From Hymenobacter sp. J193 (GTDB lineage: Bacteria; Bacteroidota; Bacteroidia; Cytophagales; Hymenobacteraceae): a stretch of 64,000 nucleotides of DNA. The notes under the pieces are model-generated. The model searched no databases. It was not told the origin of the DNA and worked only from the letters and a program-made list of their open reading frames with translations. Positions 3,364 to 22,454 of this stretch are shown piece after piece (position 1 is the stretch's first letter; the number at the start of each line of letters is the position of its first letter). The DNA lies in the NCBI RefSeq assembly GCF_024700075.1, contig NZ_JAJONE010000001.1, forward strand, positions 3,066,001 to 3,130,000. The letters are read 5' to 3'. A program made the translations under genes and the position numbers.

Positions 3364-4428
3364 ATGAAACCACTCTTTACCGCAGCGGCGGCGCTTTTGC
3401 TGGTTGGTGGCCTGGCCCGGCCCGTCCAGGCGCAGGTAGATACCGTGCGAGCCAGCACGCTGCCGCCCGCCCAGCTGGCCGAAAAGCTCTACAATAGCGG
3501 CATTGCCAAGTTCAATCAGAAAAGCTACCGCGCCGCTATTCAGGACTTTGACCGTGCCCTGGCCGCCAAAGCCGATTTTTCCAAAGCCTACTATAACCGA
3601 GCCGCCACCCGCTACGAGCTAAAGGAGTACGACCAGGCTGTGCAGGACTACGACCAGGCCATTAAGCTGGAGCCCGAAGGCTTCACGGCCTACTTTGGGC
3701 GTGGGCAGGCCAAGCAGGCTCTCAACCAGGCCGAGGCTGCCGAGCAGGATTACACCAAGTCCACGGAACTAAAGCCCGACTACGCCCCCGCCTGGTACTA
3801 CCGCGGCGACCTGCGCTTTGAAAAAGGTAATTTCAAGGAGGCGCTGGCTGATTTTTCGGCGGCCGTGAAAGCCGACCCCGCCTACGCCTACGCCTACCAC
3901 GACCGGGGCAGCGCCCAGCGTCAGCTCGGCAACTACGCCGCCGCCATTCAGGACTACGATCAGGCCCTGAAGCTTCAGCCTGAGCTGCTGCCGGCCCTGC
4001 TGAACCGCGCCAGCGCCAAGCGCCGCGCCGGCGACGTGAAAGGCGCCCTAGCCGACTTCTCCGCTTACCTCAACAAAGTCACGGACAACCCCGTGGCTTT
4101 CAACAACCGCGGTAGCGCCCGCTTCGAGGCCGGTGACTACAAAGGCGCCGTGGCCGATTTCAGCAAGGCGCTGGAGCTGAACGCCGGCTATGCCTTCGCC
4201 TATAACAACCGCGCGGCCGCCTACCTCAAGCTTGAAGACTACAAAAAAGCCGCCGACGATGCTACGCAGGCCATCAAGCTGAACGCCCAGTACGCCGAGG
4301 CTTACCTCAACCGCGGCCATGCCCGCGAGATGCTGCGCGAGGCCGACGGCGCGTGCCAGGACTGGCGCAAGGCCGCCGAACTGGGCTTGGAAAACGGAAC
4401 TGCCTACGCTAATGCCGCTTGTGAATAA
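3364..4428 (+). CDS. Exported tetratricopeptide-repeat protein
   Basis: 354 aa with a clear signal peptide (MKPLFTAAAALLLVGG, cleavage after about residue 23) followed by roughly eight consecutive 34-residue TPR units. These show the A-Y-x-N-R-x-x-A and DYDQA-x-K-L patterns from residue 40 to the end. It is probably a periplasmic scaffold. The ATG at 3364 was chosen because the signal peptide begins there; a longer frame upstream has no signal-like sequence. Only 13 nt separate its stop from the PorE-like gene, so the two are probably co-transcribed and may work together. The precise partner is unknown. Confidence 0.85.
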   Translation: MKPLFTAAAALLLVGGLARPVQAQVDTVRASTLPPAQLAEKLYNSGIAKFNQKSYRAAIQDFDRALAAKADFSKAYYNRAATRYELKEYDQAVQDYDQAIKLEPEGFTAYFGRGQAKQALNQAEAAEQDYTKSTELKPDYAPAWYYRGDLRFEKGNFKEALADFSAAVKADPAYAYAYHDRGSAQRQLGNYAAAIQDYDQALKLQPELLPALLNRASAKRRAGDVKGALADFSAYLNKVTDNPVAFNNRGSARFEAGDYKGAVADFSKALELNAGYAFAYNNRAAAYLKLEDYKKAADDATQAIKLNAQYAEAYLNRGHAREMLREADGACQDWRKAAELGLENGTAYANAACE

Positions 4429-4441
4429 GGTGACGTACTCG

Positions 4442-6490
4442 ATGAAGTTTACCCGATTGGTGGCCCTGGCTGCCGCGCTGCTGCTGGCGGTTCCGGCCTT
4501 GGCCCAAAGTGTGGAGTTCAGCAAAGACCGGTTCAGCAACGATAAGGAAGGCCTGAAAACTGCGCAGAAAGAAATCAAGGCCGGCGACGAGTGGTATTTT
4601 GCTGATCCGCCCAAGTACGAGCGCGCCCTGCCCCACTACCTCGAAGCCCAGAAGTTCAACCCGAATAACGCCCAGCTCAACCTCAAAATAGGCGACTGTT
4701 ACCTGAACTCCGGGTTTCGGCCGCGCAGCCTGAGCTACCTGCAGAAAGCCTTTGAGCTGGACGGTGAGGTGGACCCCCGCATGCACTTTCTGCTGGGCCG
4801 CGGCCTGCACCTGAATGCCCGCTGGCAGGAAGCTATTGCCGAGTACAAAAAGGCCGTACCGCCCACCGGCGCTAAAAACGCGCTGGCTTTGCAGCAGGAA
4901 ATACGCAAGCACATTACGGAGTGCGAGTCGGGTATGGCCCTCATGAAAAAGCCCACCCGTGTCTTTATTGACAATGCCGGGCCGGGCGTAAACTCGCCGT
5001 TCCCGGACTACGGACCGGTTATTTCGGCTGATGAGTCGGTGATTCTGTTTACCTCGCGCCGCGACAACTCTACCGGCGGCCAGACGGACCCCGAATCGGG
5101 GGGCTTTTTTGAGGACGTGTACCAGTCGAACCGCGCCGGCGACGGCTGGGGGCCCGCCCGTGCCCTGGCCGAGCCCGTCAATACCGAAGGCCACGATGCT
5201 ACCGTAGGGTTGGCCCCCGATGGGCAGCGCATGCTGATTTACGTGGAAAACAACGGCGGCGACCTGAACGAGTGCGACCTGCGCGGCAACAAGTGGAGCA
5301 AGCCCCAGACGCTGGGCAAGCGCGTGAACACCAACGCCCACGAGTCGTCGGCCTCCTACTCGCCCGATGGACGCATCCTATACTACGTGAGCGACCAGCC
5401 CGAGGGCAGCCTCGGCAGCCGAGACATCTACAAGATTGAGCTGGAAGGCAAAGGCAAAGCCGTAAACCTGGGCCCCACTATCAACACGCCCTACGGTGAA
5501 GAAGGCGTATTTATGCACCCCGATGGCAAGACGATGTACTTCTCCTCGGAAGGTCACAACTCCATGGGCGGCTACGACATCTTTAAATCGGTGTATGAAA
5601 ACGGCAAGTGGAGCAAGCCCGAAAACCTCGGCTGGCCCATCAACACGCCCGACGACGACGTGTTCTTCGTGATTTCGGCCTCCGGGCGCCACGGCTACTA
5701 TTCCTCTTACCGCGACGACGGCCAGGGCAGTAAGGACATCTACCAGATTACCTTCCTAGGGCCCGAAAAGCCGCCCGTGCTCAGCAATGAAGACCAGCTG
5801 CTGGCCTCGCGCGCGGCGCCCGTGAAGGAAACCGTGCTGGCCGCTGCCGTGCCCGTGGCTACCACCCAGGTAACTATCCTGAAGGGCATCGTGACGGATG
5901 CCGAAAGCAAGCAGCCGCTGGAAGCCACCATCGACGTGGTCGACAACCAGAAAAACCAGACTATTGCTTCTTTCCGCTCTAACTCGCAGTCGGGCCGCTA
6001 CCTCGTGTCGTTGCCTTCGGGCATCAACTACGGCATTGTGGTGCGGCAGGAAGGCTACCTTTTTCACTCCGAGAACTTTGATTTGCCGGCCGGCGCGGCT
6101 TACTCAGAGGTGGTGAAGGACATTGCCCTCAAGAAGCTGAACGTGGGCGCGAAAGTGGTGCTGAACAACATTTTCTTCGACACCGACAAATCGACCTTAC
6201 GCAAGGAAAGCACCGCGGAGCTGGAGCGCCTCGTGGCCCTGCTCAACGAAACGCCCAAGCTGCGCATCGAAATTTCCGGCCACACCGACAATGTGGGCAA
6301 CCCGGCCTACAACCAGAAGCTCTCGGAAAACCGGGCCCGCGTGGTAGTCGATTACCTGATAACAAAAGGCATTGACAAAGGCCGCCTGACGTTTGCCGGC
6401 TACGGCCTCACGCAGCCGGTAGCGTCCAATACCACCAAGGAAGGCCGACAGCAAAACCGCCGCACCGAATTCAAAGTGCTGGAAAAGTAG
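4442..6490 (+). CDS. PorE-like TPR / beta-propeller / carboxypeptidase-regulatory / OmpA protein
   Basis: 682 aa. Domain order: signal peptide (to about 22), TPR-like helices (about 40-145), WD40/PD40 propeller repeats (about 165-450) with repeated PDG and SRDIY-type motifs, a carboxypeptidase-regulatory-like fold from about 478 (GIVTDAESKQPLEATI), and an OmpA C-terminal peptidoglycan-binding domain from about 575 (FFDTDKSTLR; SGHTDNVGN). This order is the one known for PorE, an accessory component of the type IX secretion system in Porphyromonas. A T9SS role is inferred, since other Bacteroidota propeller-OmpA proteins share the architecture. It is the second gene of a two-gene unit and ends in a terminator. 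Confidence 0.8.
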   Translation: MKFTRLVALAAALLLAVPALAQSVEFSKDRFSNDKEGLKTAQKEIKAGDEWYFADPPKYERALPHYLEAQKFNPNNAQLNLKIGDCYLNSGFRPRSLSYLQKAFELDGEVDPRMHFLLGRGLHLNARWQEAIAEYKKAVPPTGAKNALALQQEIRKHITECESGMALMKKPTRVFIDNAGPGVNSPFPDYGPVISADESVILFTSRRDNSTGGQTDPESGGFFEDVYQSNRAGDGWGPARALAEPVNTEGHDATVGLAPDGQRMLIYVENNGGDLNECDLRGNKWSKPQTLGKRVNTNAHESSASYSPDGRILYYVSDQPEGSLGSRDIYKIELEGKGKAVNLGPTINTPYGEEGVFMHPDGKTMYFSSEGHNSMGGYDIFKSVYENGKWSKPENLGWPINTPDDDVFFVISASGRHGYYSSYRDDGQGSKDIYQITFLGPEKPPVLSNEDQLLASRAAPVKETVLAAAVPVATTQVTILKGIVTDAESKQPLEATIDVVDNQKNQTIASFRSNSQSGRYLVSLPSGINYGIVVRQEGYLFHSENFDLPAGAAYSEVVKDIALKKLNVGAKVVLNNIFFDTDKSTLRKESTAELERLVALLNETPKLRIEISGHTDNVGNPAYNQKLSENRARVVVDYLITKGIDKGRLTFAGYGLTQPVASNTTKEGRQQNRRTEFKVLEK

Positions 6491-6510
6491 GCCAACGTGT
6501 TAAAGTGCCT

Positions 6511-6551
6511 GCCGCTCCTTCGCCGTTCTGCGGTGGAGGAGCGGCTTTTTT
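6511..6551 (+). terminator. Terminator of the TPR/PorE-like unit
   Basis: GCCGCTCCT pairs with AGGAGCGGC around a 17-nt loop that can itself fold, followed by six T. Confidence 0.85.
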
Positions 6552-7073
6552 GTGGCAGGTGGAAACGCAAAAAAACCGCAGACAGAGCCAGCGGTTTTTC
6601 TACACACCTATTGCAACATAATCGAGTAGTTTATAAAAACCCACTCGTTAAACTTTCTCTTCATTCCGTTGCTGACTGGCAGCAGCGCTATTCTGACTTC
6701 AACCAACCGCAAACCGCAGGTGCGGTACTTGGGGTGAGCTTCCGCTTCTCGGTTGCAGCGCTATTGCCTCAGCAGTTGAAGCAATAGCGCTGTTTTCCAG
6801 GCTTCCGACTTCCGTCATGGGCGGCAAAAGCTGAGAAAAACTCAAGGCAGCTACTTGCTGCGTCCGAATTCTTATGCAAGTATAGAGCGGCCTTGTTCGG
6901 GTGGAAAGGAAGCAACGTGGGTATTTGTGACATAGGAATAAGGAAGATATAGGCTCCTTTTTGAGAAGAACTTTAAGGTAAAACGGTGTACAAGCTTTGT
7001 ATGGCGCGTTACCAGATTGTTTGTCTACTGCCTGATTGTGACACGTGCCAGGAGTATTTCGGCACGTTGCGGG
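6552..7073. other. Gene-free stretch with further hairpins
   Basis: No gene is convincing here. A second terminator-like hairpin lies at 6571-6599 (AAAAACCGC with its complement). A perfect 12-bp stem at 6756-6767 / 6781-6792 (CAGCGCTATTGC) is followed by TTTT, and its core CAGCGCTATT also occurs as a direct copy at 6682-6691. The rest is moderate-GC sequence without a recognisable RNA gene. Confidence 0.6.
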
Positions 7074-8054
7074 CTATATTATTTTCCGTCCGGCAACAAC
7101 CCGCAGGCTGAGTAGCGTCAGCAGGACGCTTACGCCTGGGAAGGCAGCTACCCACCAGGCTTCCGGGGCCAGCCGGGCGGCGGCCAGCAGGTGGCCCCAG
7201 CTGGCTTGCTCCGCGGGCAAGCCAATGCTTAAGAAGGAGAGAGTGGTTTCAAGCCCAATGATAACAGTGAGGTAGAGCAGAAAGGAGGTAGCCACCAAAC
7301 CGCGCAGGGCCGGCCAGGCGTGCCGCCAGATGAGCTGGCCGTCCGTGAGGCCCAGTGCCCGGGCAGCTTCCAGGTAAGGCAAGGCCTGCACCCGCAGCAT
7401 CTCGGCTCGTACCAGCCGCATCATGCCCGGCCAGAACAGCATCCCCAACATCAGGATGGCCGATACCACGGAGAAAGGCATAACTGCCGCCAGAATCACT
7501 AGTAGAATAAGCCGGGGAACGGACCCCAGTATGGCTGCTATGCCCAGGATCCAGCTATCCAGCGGCACGGCTTTCCTGGTACGCCCCCAGTTTGTGCGGC
7601 CCACTCCCCAGGCTAGTGCCCCGCCAATGAGCAGCCACAGCAGCCACGCCAGCACGGTGGTTCCATCAGTGGTTGGCAACAGTAAATACAGCACAGTTAA
7701 TAGGGCGGCATAGCTGCTGCCCAGCCATTGCGCCCGCGTCAGTTGGAGCCGGGTGTTTCCCCAGTAGCCAGCGCTGCCGCCCAGAAGCACTGCCAGCAGC
7801 GTCAACAGTAAGGTAGCGGGCAGGCTTACTCCTACCAGTGTGCGGCTGCCATAAAGCAGCTCGGCCAGCACGTCGCGACCCAGCGCATCGGTTCCCAGCC
7901 AGTGTTGGGTGGCGGCGCTGGGCGCAGTGGCTATGAAGGTAATATCGGTTTGGCCGGGCTCAAACGGCAAAGGCAGCCAACCAGCACTGACGGCAACCAA
8001 AACTAGCAGCGCCAGCCAACCAACAGCCACCCACAAGTGCCAGGGCCTACGCAT
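7074..8054 (-). CDS. Peptide-type ABC transporter permease, OppC/DppC-like
   Basis: 326-residue membrane permease of the binding-protein-dependent transport family. About six hydrophobic helices are visible. The cytoplasmic EAA loop that docks the ATPase is EAARALGLTDGQLIWRHAWP, and the N-terminal half carries the LGTDALGRDVL motif typical of OppC/DppC. The start at 8054 overlaps the end of the upstream permease gene by 8 bp (ATGCGTAG), which implies translational coupling. It has a longer hydrophobic middle section than textbook OppC. No ATPase gene follows in this window, so the ATPase must be encoded elsewhere. Confidence 0.9.
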   Translation of the reverse strand: MRRPWHLWVAVGWLALLVLVAVSAGWLPLPFEPGQTDITFIATAPSAATQHWLGTDALGRDVLAELLYGSRTLVGVSLPATLLLTLLAVLLGGSAGYWGNTRLQLTRAQWLGSSYAALLTVLYLLLPTTDGTTVLAWLLWLLIGGALAWGVGRTNWGRTRKAVPLDSWILGIAAILGSVPRLILLVILAAVMPFSVVSAILMLGMLFWPGMMRLVRAEMLRVQALPYLEAARALGLTDGQLIWRHAWPALRGLVATSFLLYLTVIIGLETTLSFLSIGLPAEQASWGHLLAAARLAPEAWWVAAFPGVSVLLTLLSLRVVAGRKII

Positions 8055-9123
8055 GAGCTGGGGAAGTAGCCTGGCGGCGCAGGCGCGGGTCGGCCCAGGC
8101 ATAGAGGACGTCGGCCAGCCAGTACGATACCAGTCGGGCCGCTGCTACCAGGGCCACGCCGCCCAGCAGCACCGGATAGTCGCGGGTGGCGACGGCTTCA
8201 GCCAGCAGTCGGCCCATACCAGGAAGGGCAAAAATTACTTCCACCACTACCGCGCCGGCCAGCAGCGCCGGCAGCAAATCAGTAAGCAGGGTGATAAACG
8301 GCAGCGCGGCATTGCGCAGCACGTGACCCCGCAACACTTGCTTGTCTGATAGTCCCTTCGCTCGTGCCGTTATCACGTACTGGCTTCCGGCTTCCCGCCC
8401 GAGTGCCGCCACCAGTTGCAAGACCAGGCCAGGCACGGTCACGAGCAGCAAACTACTGACAGGCAACGTGTAATAGTACAGATTTCGGGTGCCTGATTCC
8501 CACAAGCTTTCGGCGCCGGCTGGTTCCGGCAAGCCGTAAGCCGGAAACAGCGGAAGAGCGTCGGGGTTGGCGAGCAGCAGCAGTAGGGCCGTGGAAACCA
8601 GGAAAAGCGGGGCCGCATCCAGTGCCACGCACAAACTCAGGACCCAAGGGCGCCACCAGCGCCGTCGGGCCAGCCGCAGCCCCAGCCAGAGGGCCAGCGC
8701 TACCGAGCCCACAGCTGCCGGCAGCGTAAGGCGAAGCGTGTTGGGCAAGGCTTCACTGATGATGGCTGTTACCGGTCGTCCGTCCCGGTAGGAGCTGCCG
8801 AGGTTGCCCGCTGCCAGCTGCCACAGCCATTGGTGGTATTGGTTGTGTTGGCCATGCCAGCGCACTGCCAGAAGCCATGGGCCATAGGAAGGATGGGGAG
8901 CAACCGACAGGTAAAACAGCGGTAAATTCAAACCCAGGCGCTTTTGCAAAGCTTGTTGGGCTTGTTGGCGCTCGAACTGCCGTGACGATAAAATGTCGGT
9001 TTCGGACGTAAGCTGCACTATGCTGCCGGAGCCGGCCAGTCGGCTAAGCAGGAATACGGTCGAAAGCAGCAGCCACCCCAGCATCAGGGGCTTAAGCAGC
9101 CGATACGCAACCCGCCACCACAT
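8047..9123 (-). CDS. Peptide-type ABC transporter permease, OppB/DppB-like
   Basis: 358 aa. The N-terminal membrane helix is followed by a periplasmic loop, then the permease core with the EAA-type loop (ITARAKGLSDKQVLRGHVLRNA) and the family's C-terminal ending VLYAWADPRLR. It forms the heterodimeric channel with the OppC-like protein encoded by the next gene, which overlaps it. Only 2 nt separate it from the binding-protein gene, so the three genes form one operon. The transported substrate is presumably peptides or a similar ligand; this is inferred from family alone. Confidence 0.9.
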   Translation of the reverse strand: MWWRVAYRLLKPLMLGWLLLSTVFLLSRLAGSGSIVQLTSETDILSSRQFERQQAQQALQKRLGLNLPLFYLSVAPHPSYGPWLLAVRWHGQHNQYHQWLWQLAAGNLGSSYRDGRPVTAIISEALPNTLRLTLPAAVGSVALALWLGLRLARRRWWRPWVLSLCVALDAAPLFLVSTALLLLLANPDALPLFPAYGLPEPAGAESLWESGTRNLYYYTLPVSSLLLVTVPGLVLQLVAALGREAGSQYVITARAKGLSDKQVLRGHVLRNAALPFITLLTDLLPALLAGAVVVEVIFALPGMGRLLAEAVATRDYPVLLGGVALVAAARLVSYWLADVLYAWADPRLRRQATSPAHA

Positions 9124-9125
9124 AC

Positions 9126-10847
9126 CTAAAGCTTCGGCTGCTCCACAAACCCCGCTACCTCGTAGCCCGGCGACAAGCTCGACAGGCCCAAATTGGTAAA
9201 CCGCTTCGACACGGCTATGGGGTTGCGCATGAAGTACAGCACCCGCAATGGCCGCTCCCGCTGCAGCACGCGTTGGAACTGGCGCAGGAGCTTGCGCTTG
9301 CTGAGTGTGTCCTCGGCCGCCGCCAGTTGTTCGAGCAGCCGGTCGGATGCCGGGGAGCCGAAACCGGTGTAGTTGCCGCCAGCCGTGCCAGTGCTGGCCG
9401 AATGCAGCAGGGGAATAAAGTTATGCGCAAACGGGTTGCCTACCACAGAGCGCAGGTACACGTCAAATTCACCGGCTTGCAGCTGCTGCGTGAGCTGGGC
9501 GCTTTCTGCTGGCCGCAACTGAACCGCAATACCCAGGCGTGCGGCGGCTGTACGGACCTGCAGCGCAATAAATTCGTAGGCGGCATTGCCGGCCCGGTAA
9601 GCAATAGTGAAGCCCAACGCCATAGGCTTGCCGTCGGGGCCTGCCTGCCACCAGGACCCATCGGGGCGGCGGCGCCAGCCAGCCTGCTGCAGGTAGGCTA
9701 TAGCGGCCGCTGGGTTGAAGGTGTCTGCTGGCAGGCTGTCGTTGTAAAAACTGGGTTGTTGCGGGCTGATCATGCTCACGCTGGCATACCCTTGCTGATG
9801 CAGCGCGCCATTTAAAATACCCTCTACATCAAACAAGCTGCTGATGGCCTGCCGGGTGAGAGCCTGCCGCAAAACCGGCCGCCGCGTGTTGAAGCCGGCC
9901 GTTACCATCTCATAGGAGTCGGGCGTGTACAAGCCCAGGCGCAAGGTATCGGCGGCTGACTGGCGGAGGCGGGCAAAATCGGCCGGCGGAATTCCGGCGT
10001 ACACGTCTATCTCCTGGCGGCGCAAAGCCAGCAAGGCGGCGGTTTGGTCGGGTATTATCTGAAAGCGAATCTGTTCGGGGTGGGCAGTGAGTTGGGGCAC
10101 CGTGGCCTGTAGGGCGTCTCCCCACCACGGGCGCTTGCGTTGCAAGGTCAGCTGCTGGCCGGTTTGCCAGGTTTTCAGCTGATAAGGGCCGCTGCCATAC
10201 CGGCCGGGCGAGCGTTCGAGGCCGGCCGTGGCCAGCCGCTGAATGACAGCCGCCACGGCCGGCCGCGCGGCTGCCACGGAATCGATGTCAGTCAGCGGAA
10301 GCAGGCGCAGCGTGTGGGCAGAATCAAGCAGGTGCTCGGGAAGAATGGCAAAATCCCCGGACAGCATCCGATAGTCCGGGGCATATGGGGCGCACACCAG
10401 CGTAAAGCGACGCGGGTCTGTTGCTGAAATCGTAATGTCCCGAATAAAGCCGTACTGGGCCTGCATCCGCTCGTTGGGCAAGCCGGGGCAGCGCATAGCG
10501 CGCAGGCTGAATGCTACATCGGCCGCCAGTATAGGCTGCCCGTCGTCCCAGGTAGCCTGGGGGCGGATGCGGTAGGAGAAAAAGGAAGCCGACCCGGTGC
10601 GCCGCACCGCGGGCAACGAATCGGCTAACAAAGGAACGAGTTGCTGCCGGGGAGCATCAACGGCTAGCAAACTCTGGTACGTGAGGTTGATGGCCTGAAC
10701 GGCCACAGCATTGGCCAGCATGTGCGGATGCAACGACTCCGGGTCACGGGGCCAGCGGATACGCACCTGGGCCGCAGGAGGAGGAGTCGGCTTACAGGCA
10801 CCAAGCAGTAAAACCAGCAACGCCGAGCGGAACCACAATCCAAGCAT
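9126..10847 (-). CDS. ABC transporter substrate-binding lipoprotein, SBP_bac_5 (OppA/DppA) family
   Basis: 573 aa. Signal peptide with lipobox LLGAC (Cys18) makes it a lipoprotein, probably in the periplasm. The family 5 fold is recognisable from IRWPRDPESLHPHM at the N-terminus, TWDDGQPILAADVAFSLRAM, and the C-terminal lobe around FDVYLRSVVGNPF. Family members bind oligopeptides, dipeptides or nickel. It is the first gene of the importer operon. A short peptide gene ends only 75 nt upstream on the same strand, with no terminator between them, although a possible separate promoter (TATCTTGC, 10879-10886) lies in that gap. Confidence 0.9.
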   Translation of the reverse strand: MLGLWFRSALLVLLLGACKPTPPPAAQVRIRWPRDPESLHPHMLANAVAVQAINLTYQSLLAVDAPRQQLVPLLADSLPAVRRTGSASFFSYRIRPQATWDDGQPILAADVAFSLRAMRCPGLPNERMQAQYGFIRDITISATDPRRFTLVCAPYAPDYRMLSGDFAILPEHLLDSAHTLRLLPLTDIDSVAAARPAVAAVIQRLATAGLERSPGRYGSGPYQLKTWQTGQQLTLQRKRPWWGDALQATVPQLTAHPEQIRFQIIPDQTAALLALRRQEIDVYAGIPPADFARLRQSAADTLRLGLYTPDSYEMVTAGFNTRRPVLRQALTRQAISSLFDVEGILNGALHQQGYASVSMISPQQPSFYNDSLPADTFNPAAAIAYLQQAGWRRRPDGSWWQAGPDGKPMALGFTIAYRAGNAAYEFIALQVRTAAARLGIAVQLRPAESAQLTQQLQAGEFDVYLRSVVGNPFAHNFIPLLHSASTGTAGGNYTGFGSPASDRLLEQLAAAEDTLSKRKLLRQFQRVLQRERPLRVLYFMRNPIAVSKRFTNLGLSSLSPGYEVAGFVEQPKL

Positions 10848-10878
10848 GAAGGTAGGGCCGGATGTAGCCGGCTGCCTG

Positions 10879-10909
10879 GCAAGATACCCAAGTTTTGGAA
10901 TGGCCCGAA
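10879..10909 (-). promoter_or_regulatory. Possible promoter of the importer operon
   Basis: On the minus strand TTCG, 19 nt, TATCTTGC resembles the Bacteroidota -33/-7 pair. It would start a transcript just before the binding-protein gene. Confidence 0.35.
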
Positions 10910-10922
10910 CGAAAGGCGGGTT

Positions 10923-11120
10923 TTAGGGCTTGCTCACCTGGCCTTCGCCCCAGCTACCGCCACCGGTGGCGGCTGGAGGAGTGGTGGAGGTTGCCTGGCC
11001 TTCACCCCAGCTGCCGCCGCCCGTCTCAAGGGTATTTATGGGCTTGGGGGCAACCGTACCATTAGGCTTATTCAGGAAAGTGGCCAACTGCAGAAGGACG
11101 AGTGCAATAAGTTCTAACAT
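10923..11120 (-). CDS. Small protein with two TGGGSWGEGQ repeats (candidate signal peptide)
   Basis: 65 codons: a hydrophobic N-terminal helix (MLELIALVLLQLATFL), a spacer, then TGGGSWGEGQ twice, separated by ATSTTPPAA, and a short tail VSKP. The two repeat copies differ at four nucleotide positions, all silent third bases, which is direct evidence that the frame is translated and selected. The N-terminus has no basic residue before the hydrophobic stretch, so it is not a classical signal peptide. It lies 75 nt upstream of the importer operon and is divergent from the helical-repeat protein. I do not recognise the family. A role as a precursor of an exported peptide is inference from context. 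Confidence 0.65.
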   Translation of the reverse strand: MLELIALVLLQLATFLNKPNGTVAPKPINTLETGGGSWGEGQATSTTPPAATGGGSWGEGQVSKP

Positions 11121-11471
11121 GACACGCTTACTGTAGTGAGGTGAAGAGAAATGAAGATTTGTTTCGAATTTCCCCTGAAATTTGACCGAAGTAAAGGAAG
11201 GTATGGCTGTAAATGGGACTATAACTATGATTTAACTTAATTGCACTTTGCCTTATTTGAGTTATTGGCTTAGGCCTTTTTTAATTACAGAAGTTAGTAA
11301 ATAACATGGACGTATGCTAAAATATAGCTAATCTTGTGACACGATGTTGGCGCTTGGTGGCCGGAGTTAACACAATAAATATTGTGTTTCTCTCAGAGAG
11401 TAAGAAGTAAGTGCCTGGTGAAACCTGCCTGGCATCACGGTTGGCTTGAATCACTTACTAAGGGAAATTAG
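11121..11471. promoter_or_regulatory. AT-rich divergent control region with palindromes
   Basis: 351 bp without a gene, far lower in GC than its surroundings. It separates the peptide gene from the divergent regulator-like gene. ACACAATA-AA-TATTGTGT (11370-11387) is a perfect inverted repeat, followed at once by CTCTC-A-GAGAG (11390-11400). TAATCTTG at 11329-11336 may be a -7 box for the rightward gene. The dyads are plausible binding sites for a regulator. Confidence 0.5.
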
Positions 11472-12971
11472 ATGAAGGAATTGGCGTCTATTGCCCGAAT
11501 TGTGACTAATAGACGGCAGAAAGTGATGCCGTTATTAGACTTTACTCAGAAGCCCAGCCAGAGTAAGGAGTTGCAGCTGCTGCACCTGCTGCAGACGCGC
11601 GACAACGTGACAATGCTGCAAGCCGTTCGGGAGCTGTATGGTAGCGGCAGTGCCGTGAACCAGACGGCCCTACGCAAGCTCAAGTCCCGGGTGCAGCACA
11701 AGCTGTTCAGTAACCTGTTTTTTCTGGATTATACAGATGCCCGCCACCCGGTATACCGGCGCTACGAGCAGGAATGCCTGGATCTGCTATACCAGGCCGG
11801 GGTATTGCTGCGGGAGGGCGAGTACGTGGTATCCGAAAAGCTGTACCGGCGGTGTCAGCGGCTGGCCGCCGAGGGCGAGTTCAACCAGCACGAAGTGACC
11901 AGCCTGCTGGGACTGCGGCAGATTTATGCCGAGCAGCGCCAGGCAGGCAAATACCGGCACGCAGTAAAGCAGCTGGTAGCGGCCGAGCGGCTGCTGCAGC
12001 TAGAGCAAAAGGCCAGCGAAATTTTCTGGGAGGCCAAAATGATGCTCTCCGATAAAGTGCGCATCCGGCAGCAGCTGCTTGCAAAACTGCCGGAGTTTGT
12101 GCGCCAGATGGAGGCGCTGTACGACCAGGCGCCCGTGTTCCGGGTCTACGACCACCTCTACAAGCTGCGCCTGATGCAGCAGGAGTTGAGCGGAGACTAC
12201 GAAGGTATTATTCAAACGACCAGCGAGTCGGAAAAGCTGTGGGAGGCCGGCAAGCTGAATGCCAAGCGCTTTGACCGGCGCTACAACATGTTTTACAGCG
12301 TTTTTGCTCACCTGCAGGCCCGACGCCTGCAGGCCGGCCTGGAGCTGGCGGCGCAGTATCTGAGCGCCTTTCACCGCTCGTCCGGCAACTGGTTTGTGTT
12401 CATGGAGCACTACCTCCTGCTGGCCATGCACGCAAGCGAATACGGCAAGGCCACCGAGCTGCTGAAAATGGCCTTCGACAACCCGTTTTTCAGCAAGCTG
12501 CGCACGGCGGCTCAGCAGCGGTGGGAGCTGTACCGGGCCTATCTGTACTTTGTAGCGCCCGAAAACCTGCCGGTGCGCAACCTGCACTTTGCCCAGCTGA
12601 TGCATGTGCTGCCCGAGTACAGCCGCGACAAGCAGGGCCTGAACGTGGCCATCCTCATCCTGCAGTTTCTGTATTACCTCAAGCAGCGCAACCTGGAAGA
12701 GGTGCTTTCGCGCCTGGAGGGCCTGCGCAAGTACGCCGGCACCCACCTGCGGGAGGCCGCTGCCCTGCGCGGGCGGTTATTCTTCCGACTGCTGCAGCTC
12801 ACCGTCACCGAGAACTTTGATGAGGCTCTGTGCCGCCGCAAGGGGCAGCCCCTGCTGGCCAAACTGGCGCAGACACCCATGCCCGGCGAGGCCTTTGCGG
12901 GCATCGAAATCATTCCGTACGAAAACCTGTGGCAGCTCACCCTGCACCTGATGCAGCAAGTAGAGCAGTAA
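11472..12971 (+). CDS. Helical-repeat (TPR-like) protein with a possible N-terminal DNA-binding segment
   Basis: 499 aa, no signal peptide or membrane segment, so cytoplasmic. Residues about 30-85 (LLHLLQTRDNVTMLQAVREL and TALRKLKSRVQHKL) look like a compact helical or winged-helix unit. From about 95 to 480 the chain is all helical with TPR-like spacing of A/L/Y residues (EGEYVVSEKLYRRCQRLAAE and similar). I know no function for this family. The form, a small N-terminal domain plus a TPR array, recalls peptide-sensing regulators of the RRNPP group, but sequence similarity is not claimed. A second ATG at 11526 is a possible alternative start. Confidence 0.75.
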   Translation: MKELASIARIVTNRRQKVMPLLDFTQKPSQSKELQLLHLLQTRDNVTMLQAVRELYGSGSAVNQTALRKLKSRVQHKLFSNLFFLDYTDARHPVYRRYEQECLDLLYQAGVLLREGEYVVSEKLYRRCQRLAAEGEFNQHEVTSLLGLRQIYAEQRQAGKYRHAVKQLVAAERLLQLEQKASEIFWEAKMMLSDKVRIRQQLLAKLPEFVRQMEALYDQAPVFRVYDHLYKLRLMQQELSGDYEGIIQTTSESEKLWEAGKLNAKRFDRRYNMFYSVFAHLQARRLQAGLELAAQYLSAFHRSSGNWFVFMEHYLLLAMHASEYGKATELLKMAFDNPFFSKLRTAAQQRWELYRAYLYFVAPENLPVRNLHFAQLMHVLPEYSRDKQGLNVAILILQFLYYLKQRNLEEVLSRLEGLRKYAGTHLREAAALRGRLFFRLLQLTVTENFDEALCRRKGQPLLAKLAQTPMPGEAFAGIEIIPYENLWQLTLHLMQQVEQ

Positions 12972-13019: not shown

Positions 13020-13736
13020 TCAGAACTTGTTGAGGCGCTGCGTGACGTCGCGCATGTACGTCTGACCGATGGGAATCAGCTTATGGTCGATGTTGATGGC
13101 GTTGTCTTCAATGGCCTGAATCCACTTCATGCCCACGATAAAGGAGCGGTGCACGCGCACGAACAGCGCCGGCGGAAACTTCTCTTCAACGGCCCGCATG
13201 GTGCTGTACACGATGAGCTTGCTCTGGCCCGTAACGATGTGCACGTAGTCGCCCAGGGCCTCCACGTAGCGCACTTCGTCGAAGAGCACCTTCACCAGCT
13301 TGTTGTCTACCTTCACGAAGGTGAACTCGCTTGAGTCGGCGGCACCCGGTTCCGGGGCGTTGTTGGTAAACTGGTCGAGGGCTTTCTGAGCGGCTTTCAG
13401 GAAGCGGGCGTAGCTGATGGGCTTCACCAGATAGTCGACCACCGAAAACTCAAACGCCTCTACCGCATACTCCTTGCTGGACGTGATAAGCACTACGAGG
13501 GGCGGGCTGGGCAGGGCCCGCAGCAGCTCGATACCCGACATCAACGGCATTTCCACGTCCAGAAACAGCACATCCACGGGAGAGGTGCGCAGGAACTCAG
13601 CGGCCTCCACCGAACTGTTATAGTGCCCCACAGCCTGCAGAAACGGCGTATTGACAATGCAATTCTCGACAATCTGCACCGCCAGCGGGTCATCATCAAC
13701 GATAAGGCAGCGGAGAGGAGCAGCGGGTACGGGCAT
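13020..13736 (-). CDS. LytTR-type response regulator
   Basis: 238 aa. An N-terminal receiver domain carries the acidic pocket DDD at 14-16, the phospho-accepting Asp60 in LFLDVEMP and the conserved Lys in VDYLVKP near 109. The C-terminal LytTR DNA-binding domain (about 135-235) includes VRVHRSFIVGMKWI. The start MPVPAAPLRCLIVDD at 13736 places the receiver fold at the N-terminus. The gene follows the hybrid sensor gene on the same strand after 62 nt and probably forms a two-component unit with it. It is convergent with the helical-repeat protein gene. Confidence 0.92.
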   Translation of the reverse strand: MPVPAAPLRCLIVDDDPLAVQIVENCIVNTPFLQAVGHYNSSVEAAEFLRTSPVDVLFLDVEMPLMSGIELLRALPSPPLVVLITSSKEYAVEAFEFSVVDYLVKPISYARFLKAAQKALDQFTNNAPEPGAADSSEFTFVKVDNKLVKVLFDEVRYVEALGDYVHIVTGQSKLIVYSTMRAVEEKFPPALFVRVHRSFIVGMKWIQAIEDNAINIDHKLIPIGQTYMRDVTQRLNKF

Positions 13737-13798
13737 AAAGCAGGAAAGGAGATTGGGAGAGTGGCCACAAGGTACGCGGCTCAAACGAATTACAGGAG

Positions 13799-15154
13799 TC
13801 AGACTGAGGCCGCCAGTTCGTCGTGGCGGGCCTGAACAAGCGGTAGCACCTGCCGAAACTGTTGCTCGATAAGCTCAACTGTGCGCACGGCCTCCGGGTT
13901 ATCGGCTTTGGCCGAAATTTCCAGCTGCTCCAGGTTACGCGTGAGGCTATGCAGGCCGAAATAGGCCACCTGGCCTTTCAGTTTGTGGGCTTCGCGGGCC
14001 AGTTGCGGCAGGTCGGAACTCTGGGAGGCCGCCAGCAGCGCCGCCACCTGCCGGGGCGCCTCCCGGAGAAACGTTTCCAGCACCCGCACCATAAAGGTGG
14101 TATTGGTGCCCGCCAGCTCTTCCAGGATACTCCAGTCGGGGCGTAGCTCGGTTTCAGGCGGCCCGGCAGGGGATAAGGCGGCGTGCTCCGGCGGCCCGGC
14201 CGCAGTGGCCCGGTCGGTGCAGCGAGCCAGCGCGGCGTGGAGCGCAGCCGGCTCGAAGGGCTTGGGCAGGGCGTCGTTCATGCCAGCAGCCAGGGCCAAA
14301 GCGCGGTCCTCGGGCAAAATAGCTGCCGTAAGGCCGAGGATGGGCAGCTGTCGAGCATCCGGGAAGTGACGACGCAGCTCCCGGGTAGCCTCATAGCCAT
14401 CCATTTCGGGCATGTTCACGTCCATCAGCACCACATTGAAGGGCTGGTGCAGGGCTGCCTCCACGGCTAGGCGGCCGTTGGCCGTCACCGTCACCTCCAC
14501 ATTCCAGGCTTCGAGGGTTCGGCGGGCTACCAGTTGGTTGAGGCCGTTGTCTTCGGCTACCAGTACCCGCAGAGGCGGCTCAAATGGCTGCAATATCGTG
14601 GGCAGGTGAAACGGCGTGGCCGTCGGATCCGGCTGGCCGGCATCAGCTCGGGAGCCGTCGAGCAGGTCGTTGAACAGCGTGAGCAACGTATGAGAAGCTC
14701 CCTGTAGCGCGGTAAGGTCCTGCAGCTGCCCGGGCGTCAGCGGGCTTTGCCGCAGCAGGTGAGAGAGGCCCATCACGGCGTTCAGCGGCGTGCGAACTTC
14801 GTGGCTCATATCGGCCAGAAACCGGGTCTTGGCCCTCTGGGAAGCTTCTGCCGAAGCGTGTGCTTCGGCCAGTTCGATAGCGCGCTGCAGCAGCGTTTGT
14901 TTCAGCTGCTGCTCGCGCCGCCGCGCCGCCCGCAGCAGACCGTAGCCAACCACCATTAAACTCAGAATCAGCAGCGCCCCAACCCAGACAGTAGGCCAAA
15001 AAGCAGCGGGAAGGTGCAAAACCAAGGGCGTATGAGCGAAAAATGACGCCGCCAGATGCCTGCTGCCGGCCGGCGGCAACAGGTACTGCTGGGCGGGGCC
15101 AATCAAGCGGGCACTCCATTCGGTTAGCAAAAGCCCCATACAGCGCATAGACAT
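13799..15154 (-). CDS. Hybrid sensor protein: HisKA-receiver-Hpt, without ATPase domain
   Basis: About 451 aa. One membrane helix lies near residues 54-75, then a coiled coil and a dimerisation/phospho-acceptor domain with His118 (MSHEVRTPLNAVMG). Where the HATPase_c domain should follow, the sequence runs directly (about 175-195) into a receiver domain with Asp245 (VLMDVNMPEMDG), and then an Hpt domain with His390 (AHKLKGQVAYFG). N, G1, F and G2 boxes are all absent. The protein therefore cannot bind ATP for autophosphorylation and may act as a phosphorelay adaptor. The start is uncertain; ATG codons at 15154 and 15148 are both possible. Confidence 0.85.
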   Translation of the reverse strand: MSMRCMGLLLTEWSARLIGPAQQYLLPPAGSRHLAASFFAHTPLVLHLPAAFWPTVWVGALLILSLMVVGYGLLRAARRREQQLKQTLLQRAIELAEAHASAEASQRAKTRFLADMSHEVRTPLNAVMGLSHLLRQSPLTPGQLQDLTALQGASHTLLTLFNDLLDGSRADAGQPDPTATPFHLPTILQPFEPPLRVLVAEDNGLNQLVARRTLEAWNVEVTVTANGRLAVEAALHQPFNVVLMDVNMPEMDGYEATRELRRHFPDARQLPILGLTAAILPEDRALALAAGMNDALPKPFEPAALHAALARCTDRATAAGPPEHAALSPAGPPETELRPDWSILEELAGTNTTFMVRVLETFLREAPRQVAALLAASQSSDLPQLAREAHKLKGQVAYFGLHSLTRNLEQLEISAKADNPEAVRTVELIEQQFRQVLPLVQARHDELAASV

Positions 15155-15355
15155 ACAATTCAGGCGGGAAAAGCCGGAAGCCTGGCCCCAAGGCAAACAG
15201 TTCCGGCAGGAAGGAAGCCTACAGCTGAATTTCTGGTTGGGTTGCCGCAGCCATCCAAGCTTGGCCGGAGCAAGGGCTGGCAGCCTCCGGGGCTAAGATA
15301 AAGCGGAATGCCGCAGAAACCTTGAGGGCAGGCGCGGGCTTTGGCCGGCAAAAGG

Positions 15356-16070: not shown

Positions 16071-16163
16071 GGGCGGAGCATAACGGTTGAGGTTATTTCC
16101 GCACATTTTTCGGCTGCGTGTGTGCTTTTGGCCGGATCCGTGCATCTATGTCTGTACTCACCC

Positions 16164-19100
16164 ATGCGTTTCGCGCGTTATCGGCTCATGCGTTTCTTCC
16201 TGCTGGCTTGCTTTTCCCTGTTGATGCTTTTCTCCACTGGTTCTTCGGCGCCCACGCCGCCCGCTGGCCCCGATCCTAAAAAATGGCAGCAGGTAGATGT
16301 CCTGCTGGCGAAGAACCAAACCACTTCGGCTGCCAAGCTGGTCGACGAACTGTACCGCGCTGCGCGCCAGCGCCAGGATGCGCCTGAGTACCTGCGCGCC
16401 CTGCTCTACAAGCTGCGGCTGCTGGAAGCCAAGGAGGAAGAGTCCGACGTGAAGGCCATTGCCTTGCTGGAAGCCGACCTGAAAACGGCGCAGTTCCCGG
16501 CCCGGCCCGTGCTGCACAGTTTGCTGGGCCAGCTCTATGCCACCTACTACCAGGAGCACCGCTACCAGCTCTACGACCGTACCAGCGGCGCCACCGAAAA
16601 TGCCGCTCCTGCCGATACCAGTGCCCAGGACCTGCGCACCTGGGATGCCGCCCGTCTCGGCAGCGCCGTAGTGCGGCACTACCGTGCCTCGGTGCAGGAT
16701 GAGCCCCTCCGCCAGCAGCAACTGCCCCTGGCCCGACTGGGCTACGCGGTACTGGGCGGCAACGCCGAAGGCCGCAGCCTGCGCCCCACGCTCTACGACC
16801 TGCTGGCGCACCGCGCCGTGGATGGCCTCCAGAACGACGAGTTCTACGTGACGCACCCTGCCGTACAGTTCGAGCTGAAAGCCACCAACCTGTATGAGCC
16901 AGCCGCGCAGTTTGCCCAACTCAAGCTCACAGCGCCCGCCGCCGATACACTCAACGGCCAGTTTCACGCCCTGCAGGTGCTGCAGCAGCTTACCGCTTTT
17001 CGGCTGCAGGAAGCCCAAAACGTGGCGGCCCTGGCCGATGTAGACCTCAGGCGCCTGCGCTTCGTGCAGCAGCATTCCGTGCTGGCCAGCAAAGACTCGG
17101 TGTACCAGCGGGCCCTGGCCCGCGCCGCCGAAACCTACCAGCCTCTGCCTATCAGCACGGAGTTTCTGGCTGAACAAGCCGAAAATTTGGAAGCCTCACA
17201 ACCCGTTAAAGCCCGGGAAATAGCCCTGGTAGCTGAGAAGCGCTTTCCTAAATCCCGCGGGGCACAGCGGGCCCGCGCCTTGCGGCAGCGCATCGAGGCC
17301 GTAGCAATAGCCTTCACCACCGAAGAAGTAGTGCTGCCCGCTCAGCCCTGGCTGCTCAAGCTACAGGTGCGCAATGCGCCGCAGGTGTATGCCAAAGCTT
17401 ACCGCATAAGCAGCGCCCAGGCCCTGCGCCAGCTGGAGCAGGCCTACCGCAAGCCGCTCACCTGGGAGGAGCGCTACGCCCGCGTGCTGGCCGCCAAGCC
17501 CGCCGCGGCCTGGACGCTGCCCATTTCCGGCCCCGTCGATTATACCTCCCACAGCGTGCAGCAGGCCGGGCCGGCGCTGCCGCTGGGGCATTACCTGATT
17601 GTGCTTAGTACGGCTGCTGATAACCCCGTCAAAACTCAGGGCAACGTCATAACTTCCTACGGCGAGCTGCACGTGAGTGAGCTGAGCCTAGTGCGTCGCA
17701 ACTCCGCCACGCAGCCTGGGCCGCAGGTGCTGGTGCTGCACCGGCAGAGCGGCCAGCCGCTGGCCGGGGCCAGCGTGCTACCCTTTATGCGGTACTACGA
17801 CCAGCCCAGCCGCAACTACCAGCAGCGCCGGGGAACCAAAGCCACCACTGATGCTGAAGGCCAGGCCCAAATAGTCATAGGGCAGACCTCCAGCGAGAAT
17901 ACCCAGCTGCGGGGGCTGTTGCTGATCAAAGGTGCCGACTCTTTGCTGATTGAGGAAGGTGGCTACTACGGCCCGCGCTACATCCGCGACGAGGAGCAAC
18001 TCCAGCGCCAGACTTTCCTCTACACCGACCGCGCCATCTACCGCCCTGGTCAGACGCTCTACTTCAAAGGCATCCTGACGGAAACCCAGGCCGGCAAATC
18101 CCGCCTGCTCACCAAGCAGCCCGTTTCGGTGCGGCTCGTGGACGTGAACGGCCAGACGGTGCAGACGCTGCCCTTCACCAGTTCCGACTTTGGCTCTTTC
18201 CACGGCTCCGTGGTGCTGCCTACGGGCTTGCTGAACGGGGAAATGAGCCTGCAGACCGACAACGGCAGCGTGGGCTTCGCAGTGGAAGACTACAAGCGGC
18301 CCACCTTCCAGGTCACGTTTGAACCCGTGAAAGGCACGCCCGTGCTGGGCCAGCCCGTAGTGGTGCGCGGCCAGGCTACGGCCTACGCCGGGCAGCCCGT
18401 TGATGGTGCCACGGTGCGCTACCGCGTGGTGCGCCGCACGTTCTGGCCTCTGTACCGCCCGTACGGTGGCCGGATGGGCTACCCGGGCCCCAATGGCCGG
18501 GCAGAAGTGGAAATAATAAATGGTACCACCCAAACCGATTCGGCGGGTGGGTTCACCGTCAACTTTACCGCGCAGAGCGAGGCCGGCGCCAACAAGCGCG
18601 GTGGCTGGGGCCCTGGCTACGTGTTTGAGGTGACGGCCGACGTAACCGATGCCGCCGGCGAAACGCGCACCGGCCAGCAAAGCATCAGCCTGGGCAACGC
18701 GGCCCTCACGCTGCGGCTGGAAGTGCCCGAGCTCCTGAACCGCGACAAGCTGCCGGCCCTACGGCTGCTGAGCACCAACGCCACCGGCGAAGCCCGTCCC
18801 GCCAAGGGGCAGCTGCGCCTCTACCGCCTCACGCCGCCCGCCCGCGCCTTCCGGCCCCGCCCCTGGGAGCGGCCCGAGCGTGAAGGATTGAGCCGGGAGG
18901 AGCTCAAGCGCCGCTTCCCGCTGGATGCCTACGGCCCGGAAGACAACGACAGCACCTGGGCGCGCACGGAAGTCTTCACCCAGAATTTCGATACCAACAC
19001 CACGCCCTTGCTGCCGGAGCTGACCGCCGCGCTAGCCAAGCAGGCGCCCGGCCGCTATGTACTGGAAGCTACCGCCACCTCGGCGGAGCAGCCTGCCAAA

Positions 19101-22100: not shown

Positions 22101-22454
22101 CCCCTGCGGGTGGGCGACGTGCTAGTGGTGCGCCTCGTGCTGCGCGCCGACCGTGACCTGGAGTATGTACACCTGAAAGACCAGCGGGCCGCCGGTCTGG
22201 AGCTGATCAGCCAAACCTCAGGCTACCGCTACCAAAGCGGGCTGGGCTACTACGAAAGCCCCCGCGACGCAGCTACCAACTTCTTTATCGGCTTCTTCCC
22301 CAAAGGCACGCACACGTTCGAGTACCGCCTGCGGGCCGCTCAGAGTGGTGATTTTTCGGGAGGCCTTTCGCAGCTGCAGTGCCTCTACGCACCGGAGTTT
22401 ACTACCCATTCGGCCGGCACGCGGGTGCAGATAGGGGAGCAGTCCGGCAAGTAG
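16164..22454 (+). CDS. Alpha-2-macroglobulin-family protein with thioester motif
   Basis: About 2096 aa, the largest gene here. Signal peptide (RFFLLACFSLLMLF), N-terminal helical region, then macroglobulin domains. The MG2 signature YTDRAIYRPGQTLYFKG lies near 620, and the A2M bait-to-core domain (FWLPALRTNDQGE) near 1285. The thioester motif Cys1545-S-E-Gln1548 sits in YPYECSEQVF, followed by an all-helical thioester domain and a receptor-binding-like C-terminal domain. Bacterial homologues are periplasmic protease traps that protect the envelope. Lys/Arg-rich residues encoded at 20461-20571 look like an insertion. An ATG at 16188 would give a shorter signal peptide. No penicillin-binding protein PbpC partner lies nearby. 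Confidence 0.92.
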   Translation: MRFARYRLMRFFLLACFSLLMLFSTGSSAPTPPAGPDPKKWQQVDVLLAKNQTTSAAKLVDELYRAARQRQDAPEYLRALLYKLRLLEAKEEESDVKAIALLEADLKTAQFPARPVLHSLLGQLYATYYQEHRYQLYDRTSGATENAAPADTSAQDLRTWDAARLGSAVVRHYRASVQDEPLRQQQLPLARLGYAVLGGNAEGRSLRPTLYDLLAHRAVDGLQNDEFYVTHPAVQFELKATNLYEPAAQFAQLKLTAPAADTLNGQFHALQVLQQLTAFRLQEAQNVAALADVDLRRLRFVQQHSVLASKDSVYQRALARAAETYQPLPISTEFLAEQAENLEASQPVKAREIALVAEKRFPKSRGAQRARALRQRIEAVAIAFTTEEVVLPAQPWLLKLQVRNAPQVYAKAYRISSAQALRQLEQAYRKPLTWEERYARVLAAKPAAAWTLPISGPVDYTSHSVQQAGPALPLGHYLIVLSTAADNPVKTQGNVITSYGELHVSELSLVRRNSATQPGPQVLVLHRQSGQPLAGASVLPFMRYYDQPSRNYQQRRGTKATTDAEGQAQIVIGQTSSENTQLRGLLLIKGADSLLIEEGGYYGPRYIRDEEQLQRQTFLYTDRAIYRPGQTLYFKGILTETQAGKSRLLTKQPVSVRLVDVNGQTVQTLPFTSSDFGSFHGSVVLPTGLLNGEMSLQTDNGSVGFAVEDYKRPTFQVTFEPVKGTPVLGQPVVVRGQATAYAGQPVDGATVRYRVVRRTFWPLYRPYGGRMGYPGPNGRAEVEIINGTTQTDSAGGFTVNFTAQSEAGANKRGGWGPGYVFEVTADVTDAAGETRTGQQSISLGNAALTLRLEVPELLNRDKLPALRLLSTNATGEARPAKGQLRLYRLTPPARAFRPRPWERPEREGLSREELKRRFPLDAYGPEDNDSTWARTEVFTQNFDTNTTPLLPELTAALAKQAPGRYVLEATATSAEQPAKTEQRFTLYTPSANELPVPTTDWFVALQDSVAPGQTARFLVGGSEAGARVLVEVEAAGQPLRREWLTLNANEQRLVTVPVPAALGETQLYIHTTQVRDNRLYLHNAVVQVATPPAPLRLSIATFRDKLQPGQKETWRVTIHNAGGKPANAELLATLYDQSLDTFRPHSFTDLDFPKPYHPALLGWSGQFGTEESNVLFEQESSVDVTELVYPEINLWDYDEPVIVGYGGGRPVSVRVRGSVSRMVKADAVMAAPAAPMVAMDAQAGEGKALREEAQASSDGSTQAPKPDQPDLSGIQARKDFRETAFWLPALRTNDQGETVLEFQMPEAVTRWQLLALAHDQELHTGLLRRDLVTQKSLQVTPNAPRFFREGDQLRFSAKLSNLTAQPLSGTTQLFLFDARTQQPIESKVLQGTAQQAFQLAANQSTAVSWSLRIPETAEGQIPLEAITYRVVASGELRGKNEEVRADKKSRKEAKNQKRATRNKQLETVSDGEENTLPVLPNRILITESLPLPIVGPATREFELKKLTSTTSGTRRNYLLTLEMTPNPAWYAVQALPYLMEYPYECSEQVFSRLYANLLAARILQQNPRLQPVLAEWKRAAQAGDKDALTSKLEQNQEVKALLLQETPWVRDAQSDTERMRRLAELLDEPRLRAETARALLKLAKMQQPNGAFPWFEKMPDDRYITQLIVAGFGKLQKLGAFDASQDEQARPILQNALRYLDEQLQRDYTELRKQPKVDLKKDHLGDIQVQALYARSFWLKQAVAKSAQPAQAYYQQQAATFWPSQTRYLQAQLALALHRTKAAPAAVRDVLTALRENALHSPELGMYWKEVRGGYYWREAPTETQATLIEAFDEIQDDQKAVDEMKLWLLKQKQTQHWESTRATADACYALLLRGSDWLQPTQPLQVRVGGELVKPTAQQTGTGYFKTTWSAAEVKPAQGKISVQKPDAGVAWGALYWQYFEQLDKITPATTALSLERQLFREQRTAGGPVLERFTAAAPLRVGDVLVVRLVLRADRDLEYVHLKDQRAAGLELISQTSGYRYQSGLGYYESPRDAATNFFIGFFPKGTHTFEYRLRAAQSGDFSGGLSQLQCLYAPEFTTHSAGTRVQIGEQSGK
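20461..20571 (+). repeat. Low-GC repeat-like insertion inside the alpha-2-macroglobulin gene
   Basis: About 110 bp with much lower GC and a run of Lys, Arg, Asn and Glu codons. It contains CAACTAGAAAC twice at 14-bp spacing (20539-20549 and 20553-20563). It sits in frame between the conserved strands YRVVASG and SDGEENTLPVL, and it reads like intergenic repeat DNA captured in frame. Confidence 0.5.

Follow-up and report, generated by a model that had tools for sequence, protein, structure and literature searches.

Peptide pheromones that are re-imported and sensed in the cytoplasm by receptors built of tetratricopeptide repeats (TPR) are known from Bacillota and their phages, and here we describe a locus of Hymenobacter sp. 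J193, a member of the Bacteroidota, that probably encodes a circuit of a similar kind. The locus occupies positions 7,074 to 12,971 of a window of 64,000 nucleotides (contig NZ_JAJONE010000001.1, positions 3,066,001 to 3,130,000 of the forward strand), to which all coordinates refer, and consists of a propeptide gene, a substrate-binding lipoprotein, two permeases and a divergent gene for a 499-residue putative receptor. In the enterococcal PrgQ/PrgX/PrgZ system a dedicated peptide-binding lipoprotein is encoded together with the receptor and the peptide and relies on shared transporter parts; there the permeases are shared too, whereas in the Hymenobacter system only the ATPase appears to be shared. 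In the streptococcal ComRS system (pheromone XIP), ComS is very short and hydrophobic, lacks a classical signal and yields a Trp-containing C-terminal peptide. The Hymenobacter system has a similarly short hydrophobic precursor without a classical signal and a candidate C-terminal peptide with Trp, but ComRS has a single peptide without tandem repeats and an unlinked importer.

The RRNPP(A) systems of Bacillota (Rap-Phr, NprR-NprX, PlcR-PapR, Rgg-SHP, PrgX, AimR) resemble the Hymenobacter system in having a propeptide gene beside a TPR receptor of about 500 residues, candidate peptides that are C-terminal or in tandem, an Opp-type importer, the best fold matches in VIA-align and a helix-turn-helix (HTH)-like N-terminus, which is weak here. 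Two features by which RRNPP(A) systems are recognised are seen at this locus, namely a TPR-like receptor within about 250-500 residues (as a predicted fold) and a directly adjacent propeptide gene. The Hymenobacter system differs in phylum and cell envelope, in the lack of any sequence match to RRNPP families, in having a dedicated binding protein and permeases encoded within one divergon while the ATPase is unlinked, and in a leader that is almost without basic residues and has a conserved Gln at position 11. Rap proteins, the only RRNPP(A) receptors without an N-terminal HTH, act on protein targets, whereas the additional HTH-like N-terminal domain of the Hymenobacter receptor suggests DNA binding. 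Tandem pheromone copies within propeptides are known from Rap-Phr systems, those of the phages phi3T and phi105 included, with 1-4 copies stated (PMC11343458), compared with up to 20 Gly/Trp repeats in Hymenobacter. The RRNPP_detector survey covered Firmicutes and viral genomes (PMC10075063), and the available sections of a 2026 quorum-sensing review list Gram-negative signal classes without peptides, with N-acyl-cyclolysines for Bacteroidota (PMC13419125). We found no prior description of such a circuit in Bacteroidota in the literature searched, whose coverage excludes preprints and most subscription papers, and an earlier report may therefore exist.

Results

A divergent cassette conserved in Hymenobacter

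An earlier note, made from the letters of this window, had placed a peptide gene ahead of a binding lipoprotein and two permeases, with the 499-residue protein divergent from them. The open reading frames (ORFs), the Pfam matches and the lipobox LGAC bear out this order; the duplicated TGGGSWGEGQ is found as two exact protein copies in the 65-codon ORF, and the AT-rich divergent stretch that the note had described with dyads is about 350 bp long at 38% G+C, with one 8-bp dyad read. The features are as follows.

7074..8102, minus strand: permease 2, DppC/OppC type (BPD_transp_1, E 1.1e-18), overlapping permease 1 as called
8047..9123, minus strand: permease 1, DppB/OppB type (BPD_transp_1, E 3.5e-28)
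9126..10847, minus strand: family-5 (Opp/Nik-type) substrate-binding lipoprotein, lipobox LGAC (Pfam SBP_bac_5, E 1.9e-52)
10923..11120, minus strand: propeptide gene, ORF of 65 residues with ATG start; leader MLELIALVLLQLATF, linker, two TGGGSWGEGQ repeats
10938..10967, minus strand: repeat copy 2, TGGGSWGEGQ, residues 52-61, candidate mature peptide
10995..11024, minus strand: repeat copy 1, TGGGSWGEGQ, residues 33-42, candidate mature peptide
11076..11120, minus strand: hydrophobic leader, codons 1-15, near-invariant Gln at position 11
11121..11471: AT-rich divergent regulatory region, 38% G+C, nearly constant in length
11193..11198, plus strand: AAAGGA element
11334..11341, plus strand: TTGTGACA element
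11369..11388: 8-bp dyad AACACAAT-AAAT-ATTGTGTT (arms 11369-11376 and 11381-11388), read directly from the sequence
11472..12971, plus strand: ORF of the 499-residue putative receptor/regulator, HTH-like N-terminus and TPR-like superhelix

The DNA of the two repeat copies (10937-10967 and 10994-11024) is 87% identical, with the protein motif exact in both, and the binding-protein gene starts 75 bp past the peptide stop.

The receptor is present in 112 of 120 Hymenobacter genomes, and Hymenobacter guriensis, among the closest relatives, has the 499-residue protein at 97% identity. About 12 kb were fetched around 100 Hymenobacter receptor loci, which are not all of the hits and some of which are shortened by contig ends. 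The peptide gene is divergent from the receptor in 97 of these loci and is absent only in L116, L145 and L154, which are second receptor copies where neither the binding protein nor the permeases were found. The divergent upstream binding protein and both permeases occur in 89 loci; besides these three second copies, five of the remaining eleven run into a contig end (L109, L111, L124, L129, L134) and three (L157-L159) are rearranged, with the binding-protein gene elsewhere nearby. In L158 and L159 there are two receptor genes and one binding-protein gene in rearranged order, and a Gly/Trp peptide gene adjoins the receptor copy that was read. None of four other neighbours in the window (the OmpA-type protein, the response regulator, the kinase and a DinB-type protein) is constant beside the receptor.

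Does the small gene accompany the receptor beyond chance, as the earlier note had proposed to ask? Measured from the receptor start, the peptide begins some 351-378 nt upstream (5-95% range in Hymenobacter). In 84 of the 100 loci an ATG-initiated ORF that combines a hydrophobic leader with a G..W motif starts within one and the same 80-nt slot, compared with an expectation of 0.010 per slot from the remaining DNA of the same loci, which answers the question in favour of linkage. The 16 loci outside the 84 comprise 13 peptides with a GTG start and the three without a peptide.

A profile built from 15 peptides matched in 110 of the 120 Hymenobacter genomes, and all eight genomes without the receptor fall among the ten without a peptide match. 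The probability of this co-absence by chance is 5e-11 under independence of the genomes, an assumption that does not hold. Two genomes have the receptor and no profile match (G074 and G096); in G074 the peptide is visible below the threshold (L151). The listed peptide matches adjoin the receptor, as judged by eye, except for pieces on other contigs in G056, G017, G029 and G007, in which the contig with the receptor breaks off within the peptide gene or near it. In a comparison of twelve genomes, the dedicated binding protein was found in the four that carry the receptor, that of J193 included, and in none of the eight receptor-less ones, seven of which have a distant paralogue only (E 1.8e-9 to 1.3e-11), while G094 (82% complete) gave no match at all.

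The peptide and its repeats

The leader of the Hymenobacter peptides follows the pattern M-[LF]-[EN]-[LI]-[IL]-[AT]-x-A-L-[LF]-Q-..., and residues 2-16 contain no Lys or Arg in 93 of 97 peptides. Gln-11 is invariant in a 15-row alignment and present in 94 of the 97 peptides as called; only L110 truly differs, the other two exceptions being mispicked starts (L134 14 codons too early, L078 in the wrong frame, its correct peptide being the one counted in the 97 loci). Ser, Thr, Ala and Pro often abound in the linker that follows, and the C-terminal part carries 1 to 20 Gly/Trp motifs per gene, mostly G-x-x-G-W, with the maximum of 20 in L104. Across the repeats of 95 weighted loci there is hardly any variation at G(-4), G(-1) and W, the last being required by the search pattern.

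Repeats were compared within the 73 genes that have at least two of them, L078 being included in the wrong frame in the leader and repeat statistics. The synonymous difference (pS) is 0.438 and the nonsynonymous difference (pN) 0.0186, giving a pN/pS of 0.042; pN is below pS in 69 genes, both are zero in four, and the reverse is seen in none. In 49 of the 73 genes the repeats are identical in protein and differ in DNA. The low within-gene pN/pS therefore indicates selection on the repeated peptide and not only DNA copying. The conserved Gly/Trp motif, selected at the protein level, stands in the C-terminal part, where a mature peptide would be expected. The earlier note had made its proposal depend on conservation of the peptide gene; the gene is kept in 97 of the 100 loci, and its repeats are under strong selection at the protein level. 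From one locus to another this core diverges (pN 0.31, pS 0.56 for 95 cores), and the cores vary by species, with 56 different nine-residue cores listed among the Hymenobacter loci compared.

The putative receptor

The 499-residue protein of the window has no Pfam match that reaches the cut-off and no NCBIfam match. When 25 members were scanned, no RRNPP-named family was among the 22 Pfam families listed at E <= 0.1, and the receptor has no sequence relative in the PDB (best E 0.55). Because sequence homology to RRNPP proteins was tested in Pfam, in NCBIfam and by PDB sequence comparison and was not found, we do not file the system as an RRNPP member, which by sequence it is not. Where the source supplies a name, the listed homologues are called “hypothetical protein”, “Uncharacterized protein” or “Tetratricopeptide repeat protein”.

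In the AlphaFold2 model an HTH-like three-helix domain (about residues 32-82) precedes a TPR-like superhelix of helical repeats (about residues 94-498); the predicted local distance difference test score (pLDDT) of the model is 85.5. In VIA-align, Rap and NprR receptors give the best rows for this model. Taken by itself, the N-terminal domain gives weak matches, mostly to HTH domains; its hits to NNH6, pyrin and the like, also weak, were regarded as noise. The small N-terminal domain followed by TPR-like helices, as read in the earlier note, is thus recovered in the prediction, and a structural check for a helical-repeat groove and a DNA-binding domain yields a predicted superhelix and an N-terminus that is weakly HTH-like.

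The importer and the divergent regulatory DNA

Of the components of an Opp/Dpp/Nik family-5 importer, the SBP_bac_5 lipoprotein and two BPD_transp_1 permeases are present and a linked ATPase is absent. The lack of a nearby Opp ATPase had been counted as a weak point of the system. It is true that none is linked to the cassette, but far away in the J193 genome a single frame has oligo_HPY matches, in two regions; it encodes an ATPase of the fused OppD-OppF type that plausibly serves from there. An orphan importer without an ATPase was set aside on finding this unlinked gene. All 13 other genomes tested have oligo_HPY regions (twelve have two, G207 has one), and seven of these genomes lack the cassette; therefore, the ATPase is probably shared and the cassette supplies the specificity. 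Judging from genome content, the ATPase would work together with the cassette importer.

The intergenic region of about 350 bp has 38% G+C, compared with 59-64% in the coding stretches farther out on both sides. In 96 Hymenobacter loci, TTGTGACA (up to 1 mismatch, both strands) has 250 sites versus 33.7 after shuffling, and AAAGGA has 164 versus 25.5; the latter also has 34 sites in 20 loci of other genera versus 4.1. These shuffles preserve base composition only, and L078 was left out of the motif counts and of the comparison that showed conserved blocks in this region. An RNA element in this region was set aside, with no Rfam match at E <= 1.

Other genera and more distant relatives

Outside Hymenobacter, the receptor was found in 84 of 84 Hymenobacteraceae genomes searched. 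Among 20 loci read from five other genera of this family, 19 have a small gene with a Gly/Trp motif, the exception being the second receptor copy L202; the binding-protein gene is adjacent in all 20 and both permeases in 19. Seventeen of the 19 peptide loci have a single motif near the C-terminus (e.g. GGTGTWDDSN, GTSGWDDRN, GGSGTWDTRD), L204 having two such single-motif genes in a row, while L200 and L201 have three repeats per gene.

In a sample of the order, 113 of 390 genomes had a receptor match, 36 of them outside Hymenobacteraceae. The 19 loci read there include two with a Gly/Trp peptide, both in Rhodocytophaga (L220, with the importer beside the peptide, and L221, without it), two with a leader peptide ending in GW (L226, L236) and one with a leader peptide lacking Trp (L235); no peptide was recognised in the other 14. 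A sample of the phylum gave receptor matches in 21 of 395 genomes, 17 outside Hymenobacter. In a family related to Kapabacteria/Ignavibacteria, as judged by the names of close proteins, 15 of 23 genomes had a match, and 17 loci were read among 22 matches. Six of these have divergent leader peptides, eight genes in total, that share the C-terminus [IF]DRxE[DG], and in the other 11 no peptide was recognised. No importer gene was found near the peptide in five of the six regions, L356 and L357 being cut by contig ends. Six further distant loci gave no clear peptide, one of them (L244) having a leader-like ORF.

In a tree of the receptors, those linked to Gly/Trp peptides cluster, with 6 label changes compared with 25.9 after shuffling; tandem paralogues in L237 were given that locus's label. 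The expectation that homologues have a small-peptide neighbour holds for Hymenobacter (97/100) and the five other genera (19/20) but fails for most loci of the order outside the family (14 of 19 without) and of the Kapabacteria type (11 of 17 without). The receptor-peptide pairing is thus old in Hymenobacteraceae and only a lead elsewhere.

Three further arrangements were seen. L237 has four tandem receptor genes (3980-9952) beside one peptide-importer operon, like an expanded receptor family sharing one signal. The Kapabacteria-type loci L247 and L253 have two leader-peptide genes each, with the C-terminus IDR[TRA]ED, divergent from the receptor homologue, and in L358 a family-5 binding-protein gene (9445-11316, E 3e-89) is convergent with the Kapabacteria-type receptor homologue.

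Discussion

We consider it probable that the cassette is a peptide-pheromone-like circuit of propeptide, re-import and cytoplasmic receptor, operating in the manner of RRNPP quorum sensing. What we observe directly is the gene set and how well it is conserved, the co-occurrence and co-absence of its parts, the selection on the repeats and their variation between species, and the architecture of the receptor is predicted; from these we infer signalling, peptide maturation and receptor binding. In such a circuit, the hydrophobic leader would take the small protein into or through the inner membrane, and proteases would release short Gly/Trp peptides from the C-terminal repeat or repeats. The dedicated binding lipoprotein and the two permeases, energised by the unlinked OppDF-type ATPase of the genome, would return the peptide to the cytoplasm, where it would bind in the TPR groove of the 499-residue HTH-TPR protein. 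The peptide-bound receptor would then change transcription from the divergent promoter region in front of its own gene, which carries the conserved TTGTGACA and AAAGGA elements, and perhaps from others. Cassette conservation and the predicted fold thus support the earlier suggestion of an analogous peptide-signalling or peptide-sensing system in Bacteroidota, with signalling itself the conditional part.

Several results weigh against this circuit, whose weakest links are export, maturation, direct binding and the regulated genes. The leader is conserved and hydrophobic but almost without basic residues, which is atypical for export, and no exporter was identified for the propeptide. Foldseek ranks generic TPR proteins above RRNPP receptors for the receptor model. 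Coevolution of the peptide core with the receptor rather than the importer was tested and not found: in a comparison restricted to loci with all four proteins and leaving out L078 and L157-L159, the correlation of the core with receptor distance (0.42) was no better than that with binding-protein distance (0.44), and with correlations this similar the data assign the reading of the code to neither receptor nor importer.

Could the small protein instead be a resident of the inner membrane that serves the importer as subunit or regulator, or could its translation control the importer, the HTH-TPR protein then regulating the uptake of foreign oligopeptides? The short leader, which lacks the basic residues of a Sec signal and has a polar, near-invariant Gln-11, would fit such a role, as would the gap between the end of the peptide gene and the start of the binding-protein gene, with a median of 80 bp over the 61 measurable loci out of 96, L078 being left out. 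We nevertheless regard this as unlikely, as copy number ranges from 1 to 20 and the repeats are near-identical within a gene and different between species; moreover, in Kapabacteria-type loci the leader peptide beside the receptor homologue has a different C-terminus, and no importer gene was found nearby in five of six regions, two of the six being cut by contig ends.

It is quite unlikely that the exported peptide works outside the cell, as a metal-binding metallophore, antimicrobial or other Gly/Trp-rich peptide that the importer retrieves while the HTH-TPR protein only regulates the operon. Repeats with Gly, His and Trp such as HGTGGWGDG resemble the copper-binding octarepeat of the prion protein, NikA is the best NCBIfam row of the binding protein (E 1.8e-23, far below the cut-off), and the 20 repeats of L104 would suit bulk production. 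However, His(-5), the likeliest metal ligand, occurs in only about 30 of 95 weighted loci and is absent from the window repeat, 17 of 19 peptide loci in other genera have one motif per gene, and a dedicated TPR regulator with top VIA-align matches to peptide receptors is not expected for such a peptide.

That the 499-residue protein is an HTH-TPR activator of the general SARP/MalT type which senses another ligand, its link to the peptide being local regulation only, is very improbable, given that peptide and importer are nearly constant beside it where the four other window neighbours are not, that receptor and peptide closely co-occur across Hymenobacter and that Rap rows lead VIA-align for the model. 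A chance ORF or minisatellite is ruled out by the slot control and the repeat pN/pS of 0.04.

Returning to the pheromone-like circuit, we lean slightly towards a still broader proposal, in which one class of peptide quorum sensing is widespread among Gram-negative Bacteroidota and HTH-TPR receptors are paired with leader propeptides that carry a lineage-specific C-terminal code, Hymenobacteraceae having a private importer, a borrowed ATPase and an unrecognised export leader. With the same slight preference, the codes of this class would be Gly/Trp in Hymenobacteraceae and Rhodocytophaga and IDRxED-like in Kapabacteria-type genomes. If the pheromone-like circuit is right, a peptide language would be added to Bacteroidota together with a ready-made species code (the 56 cores) and an importer that may serve one peptide, and density sensing in an environmental group would become directly testable with cheap synthetic peptides.

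Neighbouring genes in the window

Convergent with the receptor gene, positions 13020-15196 (minus strand) encode a LytTR response regulator and a hybrid HisKA/receiver/Hpt kinase. These two-component genes were rejected as a fixed partner, as they lie near the receptor in many, not all, Hymenobacter loci, and among the 20 loci from other genera just 2 clearly have both of them there. Farther out, 16122-22454 (plus strand) encodes a 2110-residue bacterial alpha-2-macroglobulin-like protein with MG2, A2M and bMG10 domains. On the other side of the cassette, 4319-6490 (plus strand) encodes a protein with TPR, PD40 and OmpA domains. Its start as called appears to be too far upstream: inside the ORF lies what is likely a signal peptide, beginning MKFTRLVALAAALLLAVPALAQ.

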